From Bradyrhizobium sp. CB2312 (lineage in GTDB: Bacteria > Pseudomonadota > Alphaproteobacteria > Rhizobiales > Xanthobacteraceae), in NCBI RefSeq assembly GCF_029714425.1, contig NZ_CP121668.1, positions 186,001-250,000 on the forward strand: a stretch of DNA of 64,000 bases, written 5' to 3'. The position numbers and the translations under genes were made by a program. Position 1 is the stretch's first letter; each line of letters starts with the position of its first letter. The notes under the pieces are model-generated. The model saw nothing but the letters and a program-made list of their open reading frames with translations, ran no database searches and had not been told where the DNA came from. Shown here piece after piece: positions 23,943-55,830 of the stretch.

Positions 23943-24551
23943 TCAGACCGCAACTAACCGTTCACGCCGCAGAAACGCAAGCAGCGGCAATAGCGGCAGG
24001 CCGAGAATGGTGAAATGGTCGCCCTCGATGCGCTCGAACAAATGGACGCCGAGGCCTTCGAGCTGATAGGCGCCGACGCTGGTGGTGACGGCGTCGCCGG
24101 TGGCGTCGAGATAAGCGGACAGTTCAGCATCGGTCATTTTGCGCATGGTCATGCGGGCGACCGAGACGTCCTCGAAAACGATCTTGCCGTCGCGCGCCAT
24201 GGCCACGGCGGAATTCAGCTCGTGGCTGTTGCCGGCGAGATCGCGCAGCTGCTCCAGCGCCTGGGCGCGGCCGGCGGGCTTGTTGAAGAGGCGCTCGCCA
24301 AGCGCCAGCGTCTGGTCGGCGCCGATCACATAGCTTCCCGGATGATGGACCGAGACCGCCTTCGCCTTCTCGCGCGCCAGCAGCAGGCCGATCTCGCGCG
24401 GATTTGAAAGGTTGGACGCAGCCTGGATGCCGCGCTCGTCGATATCAGCGGTGACGGCCTCGAATGCGAGCCCGGCGTTCGCCAGCAGCATCTTTCTCGC
24501 GCTGCTTTGCGAGGCCAGCACCAACGGAGATGTGCCGCGCCAGAGAGCCAT
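23943..24551 (-). CDS. Maf-family nucleotide pyrophosphatase
   Basis: 202 residues. Maf proteins hydrolyse non-canonical or canonical nucleoside triphosphates and are linked to septum control. The N-terminal [21 protein letters not shown] (the usual S-x-SPRR region reads SQSSARK), the [11 protein letters not shown] segment with the catalytic Asp, and the [15 protein letters not shown] block are present. It lies in the first of two Maf paralog slots common in alphaproteobacteria. Its ATG shares one base with the ppsR stop (TAATG), which shows translational coupling. Confidence 0.92.
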
Positions 24552-25390
24552 TATTCCGACGGCCGGTTGCGCTGGCGATCGCTGTAGAGCTTCATGATCG
24601 CCGCCGCGGTTTCCTCGATCGAGCGGCGCGTGACGTCCAGCAGCGGCCAATCGTGCTTGGCGCTGAGCTTGCGCGCAAACGCGACCTCCTCGGTGACCGA
24701 TTGTCGGTCGGTGTAGGTGTCGCTGCCGGACTCGGCTCCCAGGGAGAGCAGGCGGTTCTGACGGATCTGGATCAGGCGTTCCGGCGTCGCGTGCAGGCTG
24801 ACGACCAGCGGCCGTGTCAGCTTCTCCAATTGCTCGGGCACCGGAATGCCGGGAACCAGCGGCACGTTGGCGGTGCGGATGCCGCGATTGGCGAGATAGA
24901 TCGACGTCGGCGTCTTGGAGGTGCGGGACACGCCGACCAGGACCACGTCGGCATCGTCGAGGCCTTCGACGTGCTGGCCGTCGTCGTGAATCATCGTGTA
25001 GTTCAGCGCGTCGATGCGCTTGAAATATTCCGCATTGAGCACGTGCTGGGCGCCGACGCGGCCCGTGGTCGCAGCGCCGAGATAGGCTTCGAACAGCTGC
25101 ATCACCGGGCCGATGATCGACAGGCTCGGAACGTTGATTTCCTTGCACTTGTCCTCGAGCCTGGACACCAGATCCTTCTCGAGCAGCGTGAACAGCACGA
25201 TCCCCGGCGCCTCCTCGATCTCGTCGAGCACGCGGTCGAGCTGCTTCTGGCTGCGCACCAGCGGATAGACATGCTCGACCGGGGTCACGTTGGCATATTG
25301 GGCGGCGACAGCGCGCGCCACGGTGATCAGGGTCTCACCGGTCGAGTCGGAAACGAGGTGCAGATGGAAATAATTGTTCGAGGTCGGCAC
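24551..25390 (-). CDS. ppsR: PEP synthase regulatory protein (DUF299, RP001 homologue)
   Basis: 279-residue bifunctional serine/threonine kinase and pyrophosphorylase family (DUF299) that regulates pyruvate, water dikinase or pyruvate phosphate dikinase. The start [20 protein letters not shown] uses GTG, with AAGGG upstream. The P-loop is [21 protein letters not shown]. Its homologue RP001 borders the chromosomal origin in Rickettsia and Caulobacter, which is relevant to the adjoining gap. It heads the ppsR-maf-coaE-dnaQ minus-strand run. Confidence 0.94.
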
Positions 25391-25727
25391 AAAAACCCTT
25401 TGAATTGCGTTGGGGCGGTTTGTGGATTTCTGTGGAGCTTAACCGCTCGGAAAGGGATGTGCGACACCAGGGGCGGGACAAGTGCCAATTTTCTTCACAC
25501 CGCTGCCCATCAGAACAAGTCCGGCGCCCTCGCGGCGCGGAAGCGGGATTGCGCGGACAACTCCCTTGATAAGCTGCCGACGGAGACGTGCAAGCCTTTG
25601 AAGCTGGCCAACTTATCGGAAGTCGCCCGAGCTCGCCGGGATATGTTGATGGATGTGAACAAGCGAGCGTGAACCCGCGGACGGCATTGCGTGAGTCCAA
25701 TCCACGGTCACTCAGACTCAAACCTTA

Positions 25728-25742
25728 AGAATCTAAGATTCT
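25728..25742. promoter_or_regulatory. 15-bp perfect palindrome in the origin gap
   Basis: AGAATCTAAGATTCT is symmetric about its central base. It contains two GANTC sites (GAATC and GATTC), the methylation target of CcrM in alphaproteobacteria. It could be an operator for hemJ or part of the origin. Confidence 0.5.
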
Positions 25743-25781
25743 AGATTTGAGGAAGGCGCTACGGACGGATATGTGTGCAGG

Positions 25782-25804
25782 GTAAGACCTTAACGAGTTC
25801 TTAC
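25782..25804. promoter_or_regulatory. Inverted repeat with CtrA-like box upstream of hemJ
   Basis: GTAAGA (25782-25787) and TCTTAC (25799-25804) are perfect inverted arms. Inside, TTAA-N7-TTAC at 25790-25804 matches the CtrA consensus TTAA-N7-TTAA at seven of eight positions. It is 46 bases upstream of the hemJ ATG. Confidence 0.4.
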
Positions 25805-25849
25805 TATCCCCAGCCTTCCCTAGGCTGGGCAGGAATCCGGGCGCAGAGC

Positions 25850-26284
25850 ATGTTCGAAGACGTCTATCTCTGGATCAAGGCGCTGCATGTGATCGCCGTC
25901 ATCTCCTGGATGGCGGGCATGCTCTATCTGCCGCGACTGTTCGTCTATCACTGCGAGGCCGAAATCGGCTCAAAGCAGTCCGAGACGTTCAAGACCATGG
26001 AACGCCGGCTGCTCAAGGCGATCATCAACCCCGCCATGATCGTCACCTGGCTCGCCGGGCTCTATCTCGCCTGGTCCGGCCACTGGTTCACTTTCGGCTG
26101 GCTGCACGTAAAACTGGCACTCGTGCTGGCGATGTCCGCGGTCCACGGCTTTTTTTCCCGCTGGGTGAAGGACTTTGCTGCCGACCGGCGCCCGCGCAGC
26201 CAGAAATTCTATCGGATTATCAATGAGGTGCCGACCGTCCTGATGATTGTCATCGTCATCATGGTGATCGTGAAGCCGTTCTAG
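25850..26284 (+). CDS. hemJ: Protoporphyrinogen oxidase HemJ
   Basis: 144-residue membrane protein with four helices. HemJ oxidises protoporphyrinogen IX to protoporphyrin IX in many alphaproteobacteria. Its N-terminal signature LWIKALHVIAVISWMAGMLYLPRLFVYH contains the conserved heme-ligand His and Trp. Further conserved segments are RRLLKAIINPAMI and the WLHVKLALVLAMSAVHGFFSRW helix with a second His. The ATG at 25850 was preferred to the upstream codon at 25775 because the family starts here. hemE, commonly at this locus, is absent from this interval. Confidence 0.9.
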   Translation: MFEDVYLWIKALHVIAVISWMAGMLYLPRLFVYHCEAEIGSKQSETFKTMERRLLKAIINPAMIVTWLAGLYLAWSGHWFTFGWLHVKLALVLAMSAVHGFFSRWVKDFAADRRPRSQKFYRIINEVPTVLMIVIVIMVIVKPF

Positions 26285-26317
26285 GCAGCCGCGCGACGTT
26301 TAGCTCAGCGCTTCGTC

Positions 26318-26346
26318 TTGCAGAGCCGGGAGCGATTTTCTATATT
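26318..26346 (+). promoter_or_regulatory. Predicted sigma-70-type promoter of rho
   Basis: TTGCAG (26318-26323) and TATATT (26341-26346) are 17 bases apart, close to the housekeeping consensus. It leaves a leader of about 180 bases before the rho ATG. No other good pair is seen in the hemJ-rho gap. Confidence 0.5.
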
Positions 26347-26533
26347 ATCGGCATCCCACCCAACGCAGGCGGATGTGGTTGTGTCTGAGCTTTCCAGAGG
26401 CCGGACACCGCATCAGGTTTGAAGCCTCACCCGGCACTCTCCTTGCCAGACCTGCGGACCTTACCTTCTCACGTCCGCATTTCAGAGCCTCCTCGCACCC
26501 CCCTCTCCAAGGTTACCCCACAGGACCACCCCA

Positions 26534-27799
<1,266 letters not shown>

Positions 27800-27822
27800 G
27801 TGCAGTGCAGCAAGAGATCAGA

Positions 27823-27848
27823 GGGCGCCTTCGGGCGCCCTTTTGTTT
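27823..27848 (+). terminator. Intrinsic terminator downstream of rho
   Basis: Perfect 7-bp stem GGGCGCC and GGCGCCC around a TTCG tetraloop, followed by TTTTGTTT. It lies 23 bases after the rho stop and is the best classical terminator in the window. Confidence 0.9.
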
Positions 27849-28115
27849 GTGCGGTGTTGCTGCGGGAAAAGTGCAGCATGGCGGACGGCCGGCGCGAAAA
27901 TCCGCGTCCATTGGAAGCTGTTGATATCTTTGCGTAATAGTTGACTTTCGCCACGGATTTGCTCCGAGCTTAGACCAGTTTAGCAGCAAAATGCTGCATC
28001 CTATATTGCATCGCAATATGCCTGTTGCTGCGGACGAGAGCGCAGCAAAACGGCAGCCTTCGGCCTCTGAAGAACGGACCGTTTGCCTTTTCCCCGCCAG
28101 CCGGACAAATAGGCC
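27849..28115. other. rho-mnmE intergenic region
   Basis: Follows the rho terminator. It carries a small hairpin AGCAGC-AAAAT-GCTGC near 27980-27993 and an AT-rich stretch around 27920-27950 (TTGATA then TAATAG) that may be the mnmE promoter. No gene is visible. Confidence 0.4.
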
Positions 28116-29465
28116 ATGCATCCGCGAGACCAGACCATCTTTGCGCTGTCGTCCGGCCGTGCGCCAAGTGCGATCGCGGTGGTGCGCGTCTCGGGCCTGC
28201 AGGCCGGCGCAGTTCTGATGACGCTCGCGGGCAAGCTACCGGCACCGCGGCAGGCCAGCCGGCGGCTGCTGCGCGACGGCGCGGGCGAGCCGATCGACGA
28301 TGCGGTCGTGCTCTGGTTCCCGGGGCCGGGCAGTGCGACCGGCGAGGACGTCGCCGAATTCCACGTCCATGGCGGACGCGCGGTGCTGGCCGCACTCTTC
28401 GCCGCTATTTCGCTAATTCCGAATACACGCACGGCCGAGCCGGGCGAGTTCACGCGGCGATCCTTCGAGAACGGCAAGCTCGATCTCACCGAAGCCGAAG
28501 GCCTCGACGACCTCATTCATGCCGACACCGACCGGCAGCGGCGCCAGGCGCTGCGTCAGCTTGAAGGGCTGCTCGGCAAGCGCGCTCGCGACTGGCGCGA
28601 GCGGATCATTGAGGCGTCCGCGCTGATCGAGGCCGGCATCGATTTCTCCGACGAAGGCGATGTGCCGGCCGAGCTGATGGCGCCGGCGGTGCGGGCGATC
28701 AAGGCGCTGCATGATGAAATTGCAAAAGTCCTTGCGGCACAGGGACATTCGGAACGCCTGCGCGACGGCCTCGTGGTCGCGATCGCGGGCGAGCCGAATG
28801 TCGGAAAGTCCACGCTGATGAACCAGCTCGCGCGCCGCGAGGTCGCGATCGTCTCGCCGCACGCCGGCACGACGCGTGACGTGATCGAGGTGCAGCTTGA
28901 CCTCGACGGCTATCCCGTCACTGTCATCGACACCGCCGGAATCCGCGAGACCGACGATCCGGTCGAGCAGGAAGGTGTGCGTCGGGCACGGGCGCGGGCG
29001 GAAGACGCCGACCTCGTGCTGTGGTTGGTCGAGGCCGAGCAGGTCGTCGATTCGGATGCGATGCGGTCGCTTCGGAAATCCGGAGGCGACCAGTCAGATG
29101 GCGCGGCCTGGATCGTGCGCAACAAGATCGATCTGGGATCCGGAGCCGCCACGCCACCGGGCGAGTTCGCGATCTCGGCAAGCCGGGGGGATGGCATCGC
29201 GGCGTTGGTGGACGCGCTCGTGAAATTCGCCGCCGAGTTTTTCGGAGCTAGCGAGGGCGCCTTGGTGACCCGGGTGCGCCAGCGTGAGCTGCTGGGCCAG
29301 GCGCGAGATAGCTTGCGCCGGAGTCTGGACCTTGTAGAAGAGGGCGAGGAGCTCGCCGCGGAAGAGCTTCGTTCCGCCGCCTATGCTTTGGGGCGGCTCC
29401 TCGGCCGGGTGGACGTCGAGGACGTCCTTGGGGCCATTTTCCAGAAATTCTGTATCGGAAAGTAG
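28116..29465 (+). CDS. mnmE: tRNA modification GTPase MnmE
   Basis: 449 residues. With MnmG it installs the cmnm5 group on wobble uridine of certain tRNAs. The N-terminal folate-binding domain starts [15 protein letters not shown]. The GTPase P-loop GEPNVGKST starts at residue 225, followed by the switch region GTTRD and [16 protein letters not shown]. The NKID guanine motif (VRNKIDLG) is present. The C-terminal CIGK carries the catalytic Cys. mnmG follows on the same strand after a 527-base gap holding parS-like sites. Confidence 0.97.
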
Positions 29466-29467
29466 CG

Positions 29468-29490
29468 CTAGTTCTTCATTCTAGAACTAG
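29468..29490 (+). terminator. Hairpin just after mnmE, possible terminator
   Basis: CTAGTTCT (29468-29475) pairs perfectly with AGAACTAG (29483-29490) around a seven-base loop. It is followed by a T-rich but interrupted run (TGCTTGTTCCATTGTTTG). It begins two bases after the mnmE stop. Confidence 0.45.
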
Positions 29491-29508
29491 TGCTTGTTCC
29501 ATTGTTTG

Positions 29509-29524
29509 TGTTTGACGTGAAACA
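29509..29524. promoter_or_regulatory. parS-like site 1 (one mismatch)
   Basis: TGTTTGACGTGAAACA differs by one base from the symmetric parS consensus TGTTTCACGTGAAACA. It is the first of five related sites between mnmE and rsmG. Confidence 0.6.
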
Positions 29525-29664
29525 ATCTGGCGAGCTGGCTCGATCGGGTTTCGCGTGTCAGCGAGCGGCGGTCGCTACCGAGAGGGCAGCAGGTTCCAAC
29601 GCGCCGATCGACCTCGCTGCGGGAACAGTGCCCGCTGGAGGACAACGAAGCTCGCCGCGATCTC

Positions 29665-29751
29665 CGTCATTGCGAGGGGCTCTTGCGACGAAGCAATCCA
29701 AGCTGTTTCCGCGGAGGCAGCCTGGATTGCTTCGCTACGCTCGCAATGACG
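29665..29751. repeat. Palindromic repeat family B
   Basis: Ends CGTCATTGCGAG and CTCGCAATGACG with inner arms GAAGCAATCCA and TGGATTGCTTC. It lies between parS-like sites 1 and 2. Confidence 0.85.
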
Positions 29752-29831
29752 GCGTCGCGGTCGTCTCGCTCTCTTCGATGTATCCAGCGTCTGGGCGGGA
29801 CCGTCACTGTATCCCCGTCACCGATGCGTGT

Positions 29832-29847
29832 TGTTTCACGTGAAAGA
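29832..29847. promoter_or_regulatory. parS-like site 2
   Basis: TGTTTCACGTGAAAGA matches the parS consensus TGTTTCACGTGAAACA at 15 of 16 positions. It is expected to bind ParB. Confidence 0.75.
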
Positions 29848-29919
29848 GCAGCCCGTTCAATGTCGCACCTACTGTGCATGGGGTTGTTTTCAAGAAAATG
29901 CTCTAGCTCCAGCGCCGTC

Positions 29920-29935
29920 CGTTTCACGTGAAACA
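29920..29935. promoter_or_regulatory. parS site 3
   Basis: CGTTTCACGTGAAACA contains the perfect 14-bp palindrome GTTTCACGTGAAAC, the core ParB-binding site. It is 57 bases upstream of mnmG. Confidence 0.85.
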
Positions 29936-29992
29936 CCGACCCCGCCCAGTTTCTACTTCCGGCTTTCATACCTCTGAGCTAGAAGTTCGCCC

Positions 29993-31873
<1,881 letters not shown>

Positions 31874-31874
31874 G

Positions 31875-31890
31875 CGTTTCACGTGAAACA
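31875..31890. promoter_or_regulatory. parS site 4 at the mnmG-rsmG junction
   Basis: CGTTTCACGTGAAACA holds the perfect GTTTCACGTGAAAC palindrome. The GTG within it (31883) is the earliest possible start of rsmG, so the site overlaps a start codon. Confidence 0.85.
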
Positions 31891-32656
31891 GCGCGGACCG
31901 GGCGGAGACAGACCGCTATCGCGACGACCCGGAACAGGTGAGGGCGCCGCTCGCCGAGCTGAGCCGGCGCCGGCCAAACCGAAGGTCGACAAGGCCAGCG
32001 TCAACGATCGGTCGCTGGACGCCGCCATCGCCGCCGACAAGAACGCGGCGCTTAAGCTCGCTCCGGTTTCACGTGAAACCGAGGACCGACTCGATCGCTA
32101 CATCGCGCTGCTCCGCGAGTGGCAGGCCAAGACCAATCTGGTCGCGCCCTCGACCTTGCCGCACCTCTGGACGCGGCACATCGCCGACTCGCTTCAGCTC
32201 GTCGATCTCGCGCCATCGGCAAAACGCTGGGCCGACCTCGGCAGCGGCGGCGGCTTTCCCGGCGTTGTGCTCGCCTGCGCCATGGCCGATACGCCGGGCG
32301 CCAGCGTCCATCTCGTCGAGCGAATCGCCAAGAAGGCCGCCTTTTTGCGCGAAGCGCTTCGTGTCACCGCATCGCCGGGGCTCGTACATCTCGCTGAGAT
32401 CGGGGATAATGTGGATAGAATCACCGGCCCCGTCGATTGCGTCACCGCGCGTGCGCTGGCTCCGCTACATCAACTCATCGGCTTTGCGGAGCCGCTGATG
32501 CGCCAGGGCGCAAAGGCGTTGTTTCTCAAGGGTCAAGATGTAGAGGCTGAATTGACCGAAGCCGCTAAATATTGGAATATTCAGCCGCGACTCCACCAAA
32601 GCCGGACAGGGGACGGCTGGATCGTCGAGTTGACTTCAGTTGAACGGCGCGGGTGA
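31883..32656 (+). CDS. rsmG: 16S rRNA (guanine527-N7)-methyltransferase RsmG
   Basis: Up to 257 residues if the GTG at 31883 is used; about 40 residues longer at the N-terminus than typical RsmG, so the true start may be a non-ATG codon further in. It methylates G527 of 16S rRNA with S-adenosylmethionine. The SAM motif WADLGSGGGFPGVVLA and HLVERIAKKAAFLREA are clear. The VSRET segment (gtt tca cgt gaa acc) is encoded by a parS palindrome at 32066-32079. parA starts 29 bases downstream, giving the classic gidB-parA-parB order. Confidence 0.92.
   Translation: MKQRGPGGDRPLSRRPGTGEGAARRAEPAPAKPKVDKASVNDRSLDAAIAADKNAALKLAPVSRETEDRLDRYIALLREWQAKTNLVAPSTLPHLWTRHIADSLQLVDLAPSAKRWADLGSGGGFPGVVLACAMADTPGASVHLVERIAKKAAFLREALRVTASPGLVHLAEIGDNVDRITGPVDCVTARALAPLHQLIGFAEPLMRQGAKALFLKGQDVEAELTEAAKYWNIQPRLHQSRTGDGWIVELTSVERRG
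32066..32079. promoter_or_regulatory. parS site 5 inside rsmG
   Basis: The perfect 14-bp palindrome GTTTCACGTGAAAC lies in the rsmG coding sequence and encodes VSRET in frame. It is 620 bases from parA. Confidence 0.85.
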
Positions 32657-55396: not shown

Positions 55397-55753
55397 TCAG
55401 GCCGCCGCGCGCATCAGGCAGCAATTGCTGTTGGCCGGCTGCGGCAGCTTGATGCGATCGTCGCAGGCCTGCTGGATGATGCGAAAGCGGGTGCCGCCGT
55501 CCTCGTTCGGTTCGATCCGGAAAATGACGTGGCTTTCGCGAAACGGCGGTTCGGAATCGCGAAGCCGGTAGCGCACCTCTTCGCCAGGGATCGCTGATTC
55601 CGGCTCGGCGCCCGCAAGGTCGCAATCCGGCAGCCAGCGCTCGCGCAATTCAGGAATGGTGACGGCGCGCCAGACCTTTGCCGGCGGCGCATCGAAATCA
55701 TATTCGAGCACGAGCTTTGCGTCGGGACGATCAGGCTTCACGGCGTCGCTCAT
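55397..55753 (-). CDS. SRPBCC (AHSA1-like) domain protein
   Basis: 118 residues of the START/Bet v 1-like fold common in AHSA1-type proteins (LEYDFDAPPAKVWRAVTIPELRERW). The C-terminal end has a Cys pair CCLMRAAA. Such genes often sit next to ArsR regulators, as here, and may handle small hydrophobic ligands. The start ATG at 55753 lies in a tandem repeat that carries its Shine-Dalgarno (next entry). clpP follows 42 bases downstream. Confidence 0.75.
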   Translation of the reverse strand: MSDAVKPDRPDAKLVLEYDFDAPPAKVWRAVTIPELRERWLPDCDLAGAEPESAIPGEEVRYRLRDSEPPFRESHVIFRIEPNEDGGTRFRIIQQACDDRIKLPQPANSNCCLMRAAA

Positions 55754-55830
55754 TGATCCAGGTCCTTATTGATCCAGGTCCTTATTGGTCCAGGTTCTAT
55801 TGATCCAAGTCTTTATTGATCCATGTCCTT
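55752..55830. repeat. 16-bp tandem repeat at the arsR-SRPBCC junction
   Basis: About five copies of ATTGATCCAGGTCCTT (first two perfect, the third 15 bp, the last two variants). On the minus strand each unit reads AAGGACCTGGATCAAT and so carries a Shine-Dalgarno-like AAGGA. The unit nearest 55753 is followed by G, so the start ATG of the SRPBCC gene is created at its end; the most distal unit also encodes the last residues (KDMDQ) of the ArsR protein. Confidence 0.85.

Follow-up and report, generated by a model that had tools for sequence, protein, structure and literature searches.

A predicted chromosomal origin of replication in the gap between ppsR and hemJ of a Bradyrhizobium-type chromosome

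The window analysed here is a 64-kb stretch of DNA (positions 186001-250000) from a single-contig genome, 9,780,375 bases (9.78 Mb) long, with a Bradyrhizobium-type chromosome. A comparison of ppsR gave strains of Bradyrhizobium as the best named matches. The window contains an intergenic gap at 25391..25849 (contig 211391-211849; 56.0% G+C, no strand assigned), the candidate oriC of this study. The gap is bounded on the left by ppsR (COG1806/DUF299, PF03618; 24551..25390, minus strand) and on the right by hemJ (25850..26284, plus strand), a place taken by hemE in Caulobacter. The size of 459 bases given by the first-pass annotation is exact, running from the ppsR start at 25390 to the hemJ ATG at 25850. 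The divergent flanks that it described are likewise present, with ppsR, Maf, coaE and dnaQ on the minus strand to the left and hemJ, rho, mnmE, mnmG, rsmG, parA and parB on the plus strand to the right. No hemE gene is adjacent to the gap. Two copies lie elsewhere, at 1.85 and 7.74 Mb (contig 1852280-1853299 and 7739983-7740987), both scoring above the curated cut-off and neither adjoining the predicted origin. The dnaA gene is located at the contig start, 211 kb from the gap. A coding reading of the gap was discarded, as the minus-strand frame at 25335-25721 is open in just 31 of 80 named relatives. An Rfam scan of 24000-30100 returned two sub-threshold matches, neither of them inside the gap.

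The divergent layout of ppsR and mnmG seen in the window (spanning at most 18 kb) is retained in 16 of 18 family genomes from other genera, these 18 being the ones with seven or fewer contigs among 77 such genomes, with mnmG located in each. As for the remaining two, ppsR and mnmG share a strand 7 kb apart in G187, and G129 is rearranged. With ppsR and mnmG kept together in most of these genomes, gene order is unable to separate the ppsR-hemJ gap from the mnmE-mnmG gap. The mnmG match carries one in-frame TGA in both genomes searched of the family genus g24 (G139 and G178), which may represent a common interruption, a recoded codon or an error.

Within the genus, the gap could be aligned at least partly in 115 of 117 genomes. 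Among the 30 best-matching genomes, its mean identity to the window was 0.868; in the flanking genes, the corresponding values were 0.759 for four-fold sites and 0.982 for codon positions 1 and 2. The gap is thus evolving more slowly than synonymous sites. Motifs were also counted in 80 gaps, a set that includes the window and covers the sequences in which the hemJ start was located (80 of 81, L262 being left out), and in eight divergent genomes picked among those with a short gap match in the 117-genome comparison. Species are shared between the sets of 30 and 80 genomes and the 27 used for the dif comparison below, so that these are not independent samples. The conserved block GGATATGT (25767..25774) occurs in 71 of the 80 gaps and in all eight divergent rows. 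Another block, CTTGATAAGCTG (25565..25576), takes the form CTTGATAAGC in 53 of the 80 gaps, and directly upstream of it 7/8 divergent rows display TGTGGATT or TGTGGACT, which are absent from the window. The eight divergent genomes retain the block at 25421 and the core at 25714 in altered form, and most of their rows display TTCACA-like, TGTGAACAA-like, GAGTC and GGATATGT blocks.

The first-pass annotation had reported two one-mismatch DnaA boxes in the gap. These stand when compared with the relaxed pattern TTWTNCACA (25491 and 25654) but not with TTATCCACA, of which the gap holds no perfect or one-mismatch copy, in line with the stated absence of a perfect DnaA box. The two one-mismatch TTATCCACA sites of the window both lie outside the gap. 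At two mismatches, four TTATCCACA sites fall inside it, against a shuffle mean of 0.74, and four or more were reached in 7 of 1000 shuffles. An apparent avoidance of TTATCCACA (3 in the genome versus 26 for reversed controls) was dismissed, since the sample count fits an order-3 Markov expectation (1 seen, 1.6 expected). The sequence TGTGGATTTCTGTGGA (25421..25436, minus strand) comprises two DnaA-box-like cores in the same orientation, 10 bp apart; it is exact in 30/30 genomes and in 70 of the 80 gaps, and is retained as a TGTGAATCCCTGTGGA-like site in the divergent rows. The DnaA-box-like TTCTTCACA (25491..25499, plus strand) was found in 69/80 gaps, with TTCACA or TGCACA in the eight divergent rows. 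A further DnaA-box-like site, TTGTTCACA (TGTGAACAA on the plus strand; 25654..25662, minus strand), was found in 74/80 gaps, and the same 9-mer occurs upstream of dnaA.

The CtrA-like box of the first-pass annotation is present as well, in the form of TTAACGAGTTCTTAC (25790..25804, plus strand), a full box with one mismatch and a related pattern in 64 of the 80 gaps. On its own it is unremarkable, as the window contains six such matches versus 1.0 expected. The hemJ-side match is absent from all eight divergent rows, one of which (L185) has such a match elsewhere; this putative site is clade-limited. The IHF consensus, allowing up to one mismatch, has no match in the gap.

No 40-bp helix in the window is weaker than the one at 25711..25750, which lies within the gap and represents a candidate DNA unwinding element. 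When the length considered is raised to 60 or 80 bp, two other places, near 29432-29435 and 55748-55760, match or exceed the gap in weakness. Sampling of 2.85 Mb revealed 46 equally weak 40-bp places, and 25711-25750 is alone in having at least three GANTC sites around it. Of 80 named relatives, 75 have the weakest 40-bp stretch of their gap at the AGACTCAAA motif, and in 30 of the 80 this stretch was the weakest of the entire fetched locus. This element contains a 31-nt core, AGACTCAAACCTTAAGAATCTAAGATTCTAG (25714..25744), with three GANTC sites. Its alignment displayed zero substituted or deleted bases across 30 genomes, insertions being ignored: 21 copies are exact, seven have one extra T, and two have other differences. 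The GANTC sites noticed at first reading number five in the gap, four of which (CcrM-type; 25693, 25715, 25729 and 25737) are packed into 49 bp at 25693..25741, with the fifth at 25833. None of 1000 shuffles of the gap reached this cluster, and 30 of 1000 reached the total of five. All 80 gaps contain 3-6 GANTC sites, compared to a sampled-genome rate of one per 565 bp, and three are found near the core in seven of the eight divergent rows and two in the remaining row. Elsewhere in the sample, four to five GANTC sites within 50 bp were observed at a single place, contig 4148512-4148580.

Conservation of this kind could in principle be that of a long divergent promoter of ppsR and hemJ, maintained for transcription and nothing else. 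The CtrA-like box and the block TCTTACTATCCCCAG (at 25799, exact in 30/30 genomes) stand directly upstream of hemJ, as this reading would have it. Meanwhile, about 100 bp separate hemJ from the conserved weak helix and GANTC cluster, and ppsR is more than 300 bp away from them; both features persist in the eight divergent genomes, in which the hemJ-proximal part is altered. Together with the position of the gap at the dif antipode, described below, this makes a promoter-only role extremely improbable.

At the scale of the chromosome, cumulative GC skew was calculated from 121 stretches of 20 kb each, spaced every 81 kb. The sampled skew peaks near 5.18 Mb and displays two almost equal minima around the circle, one at 0.16-0.24 Mb (-2376, G minus C) and a slightly lower one near 0.9 Mb (-2486). 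A skew minimum does lie at the gap, the first of these two, but not as a unique position. Among sampled GGGCAGG words between 0.51 and 1.0 Mb, 16 are on the plus strand and 4 on the minus strand, which argues against the minimum at 0.9 Mb. A KOPS-like word, GGGCAGGG, is also strongly biased: its plus and minus copies number 62 and 4 in the right-arm sample and 10 and 73 in the left-arm sample. Across the whole genome it has 303 and 296 matches, whereas its reversed control has 118 and 113.

Strand-biased words bear on a second candidate, namely that replication starts in the 1.29 kb lying upstream of dnaA (contig 9779086-9780375), at a distance of 211 kb from the gap. These words were learnt solely from stretches distant from the origin, and they disagree with each other. 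The strand switch was placed at 202 kb by GGGCAGG (bootstrap 5-95% range 90-391 kb), at 206 kb by the top five 7-mers and at 191 kb by the top 15, the gap being at 211.6 kb, and these three sets prefer the gap to dnaA by 10.95, 19.6 and 5.8 log units, respectively. On the other side, the switch fell at 25-77 kb with GGGCAGGG alone (29 sites) and at -42 kb with the top 40 7-mers, and these two prefer dnaA by 2.3 and 18.6 log units, respectively. Strand classifiers built on k-mers (k of 4 to 7) were rejected as origin locators for being too flat: their score minimum moved from 186 kb for k=4 to between -50 and -141 kb for k=5-7, with a held-out accuracy of 64/88 (k=5) and 65/88 (k=6). Skew narrows the search to a few hundred kb, not to a single gap, and composition is too flat to pinpoint the gap.

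The terminus provided a further comparison between the gap and dnaA. A dif-like site is located at 5,127,545, and its 24-nt core has exactly one exact copy per genome in the 27 single-contig members of the 117 genus genomes; a search of these 27 genomes allowing three mismatches retrieved no further copy, and the reversed control had no match. Distances from the dif antipode to the gap are centred on zero (Wilcoxon p 0.92, n=27), whereas those to dnaA are not (p 3.5e-5, n=27). These p values are indicative only, and too small, as the 27 genomes share kinship. The median distance of the antipode is 88 kb to the gap versus about 227-237 kb to dnaA. Of the 27 antipodes, 21 lie nearer to the gap than to dnaA and 24 fall to the side of dnaA that faces the gap. 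By subset, the antipode is nearer to the gap in 11 of 12 divergent genomes (p 0.62 for the gap, 5e-4 for dnaA) and in 10 of 15 near ones (0.56 and 0.018). The genome containing the window has its antipode at a distance of 26 kb to the gap, compared to 237 kb to dnaA. Chromosome lengths were exact for eight genomes, inferred through neighbouring matches at contig ends for six and rounded for 13; shifting the rounded lengths by 50 kb either way left the counts of 21 and 24 unchanged, and a version with mostly rounded lengths gave 22/27 nearer to the gap and 25/27 on its side. The outlier G062, with an antipode about 2.5 Mb off, was retained, and p for dnaA becomes 2e-7 without it. Four of the 27 genomes have the gap in inverted orientation with respect to dnaA, still at 164-366 kb from it, as expected for inversions centred near the gap. 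In these 27 genomes, the ppsR-hemJ gap sits opposite the terminus and dif.

Local features of the dnaA region point in both directions. A DnaA-box cluster away from the gap, raised by the first-pass annotation as possible counter-evidence, does exist: with five relaxed DnaA-like sites in 460 bp upstream of dnaA versus two in the gap, it is the densest sampled. It stands, though, at a place disfavoured by dif. The same region has eight GANTC sites, a core conserved at least partly in 26/26 other genomes, and a copy of TTGTTCACA in common with the gap. The last point is merely suggestive because this 9-mer is at chance frequency, with eight copies in the sample versus 8.9 expected. Fourteen genomes could be aligned over a long stretch of both regions, and the gap was the more identical of the two in 12 of them, equal in one and lower in one. 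The boxes can also be explained by an autoregulated dnaA promoter, and the region is probably a complex promoter of this type. Taken together, these observations render an origin upstream of dnaA highly unlikely.

The mnmE-mnmG (gidA) gap at 29466..29992 is a closer competitor in location. Five parS-like 16-mers, reported by the first-pass annotation at 3.7-6.2 kb from the candidate origin, were recovered by a three-mismatch search with one or two mismatches each, compared to 0.03 expected in the window. Three of them lie in the mnmE-mnmG gap and two further ones near parA and parB, at 31875 and 32065 (31875..32080). The five are TGTTTCACGTGAAACA-type palindromes near parAB, a 16-mer that we take to be the parS consensus, and they fit a parS centromere that includes the site at 29466-29992. 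We read the mnmE-mnmG gap as a centromere and not as oriC.

According to the accessible text of the 2008 Ori-Finder work, by contrast, this gap would be the origin: its published prediction for ten Bradyrhizobiaceae genomes follows the rule of a location next to gidA with the DnaA box TGTTTCACG. Excerpts of other reports indicate that the annotation of Oligotropha used the TGTTTCACG motif as well and that the origin of strain Lb8 was annotated with Ori-Finder. The two gaps are 4 kb apart, so that dif and skew are unable to separate them. The edge of the gidA-side gap is as weak as the ppsR-hemJ gap over 60-80 bp and fairly weak over 40 bp (-1.23 versus -1.17 kcal per bp for the ppsR-hemJ gap). 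Nevertheless, the proposed box TGTTTCACG is one half of the 16-mer palindrome present five times near parAB, and the mnmE-mnmG gap contains neither a DnaA-like site at two mismatches nor a GANTC site. It also holds a dispersed palindromic repeat, with 21-42 query matches per genome, own locus included, across the 27 genus genomes. Its main alignment spans the entire gap in 1 of 26 other genomes, whereas at least 385 of the 459 bases of the ppsR-hemJ gap are aligned in 14/26. On this balance, replication starting from the gidA-side gap seems very unlikely. The repeat itself is an element of about 100 bp (window 29652-29755) that folds strongly (fold z -7.3); among the matches listed, the secondary ones of the 29652-29755 query fall on this palindromic element. 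It presumably belongs with the similar dispersed repeats known in Bradyrhizobium and Rhodopseudomonas.

Based on these findings, we postulate that the ppsR-hemJ gap is very probably the chromosomal origin of replication, as the first-pass annotation had proposed. This prediction is supported by the dif antipodes of 27 genomes, which are centred on the gap and away from dnaA, and by the earlier proposal of what is apparently the same gene pair for B. japonicum USDA6, USDA110 and for strain DOA9. Location and conservation were obtained by sequence comparison, and from these we infer DnaA binding, melting, methylation control and origin function. DnaA would bind a degenerate box array on the ppsR side (25421-25436, 25491, 25565-25576 and 25654) and melt the adjacent weak 40-bp element at 25711-25750, where the helicase would be loaded. 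Two forks would then leave along the divergent gene strands toward dif, at a distance of about 4.9 Mb. Through the four GANTC sites in or beside the weak element, CcrM methylation might mark the freshly copied origin, and ParB bound to the five parS sites, 3.7-6.2 kb off, may draw the new origin to the pole. More speculatively, with only degenerate DnaA boxes at hand, hemimethylation of the CcrM sites inside the unwinding element after firing could alter melting or protein binding and so block re-initiation, an idea that we regard as possible yet doubtful. If true, GANTC sites in the element would be an alphaproteobacterial counterpart of the GATC/SeqA control of E. coli.

These results have implications for Bradyrhizobium, an agriculturally important genus of soil bacteria. 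They support an origin between ppsR and hemJ over the gidA-side origin given to the family by a prediction tool from parS half-sites. Assignments of the Ori-Finder type are used in genome papers, and the choice affects replichore maps and growth-rate estimates from read depth. The gap also offers a small testable anatomy, in which a CcrM-type cluster sits inside a weak helix, accompanied by degenerate DnaA boxes.

The ppsR-hemJ location is already known as a prediction. The accessible text of the USDA6 genome paper (2011, PMC3927601) puts the origin between bll0636 and blr0637 from GC skew, dif and gene order, and that of the DOA9 paper (PMC4339197) places it between the same genes or their orthologs. 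Both genes are labelled hypothetical in these papers; judging from strands and gap size, they would correspond to ppsR and hemJ. No experimental origin mapping in Bradyrhizobium was recognised in the literature searched, a body from which subscription papers were mostly out of reach. The conservation footprint, the weak-helix/GANTC element and the 27-genome dif comparison are additions of this study, with no counterpart found in the accessible portions of earlier reports. The putative origin of USDA6, USDA110 and DOA9, as described in those portions, resembles the one proposed here in its conserved gene-pair gap, its GC-skew shift and its position opposite dif. The same portions give the location and 82% identity over 391 bp, and no description of boxes, unwinding or GANTC anatomy was found in them. 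The gidA-side origin that Ori-Finder gives to Bradyrhizobiaceae shares the 10-kb neighbourhood but occupies another gap and, in the text available, is defined by parS-like boxes.

Further afield, the available text of PMC1914354 describes hemE-COG1806 as the likely ancestral origin setting. The Caulobacter crescentus origin, Cori, is similar in that it adjoins COG1806 (ppsR) and has CtrA sites and parABS nearby, according to the accessible parts of PMC1914354 and PMC4468827. The present gap differs from Cori in having hemJ in place of hemE as neighbour, one CtrA-like box instead of five, and no IHF consensus. The DnaA boxes of Cori are weak.
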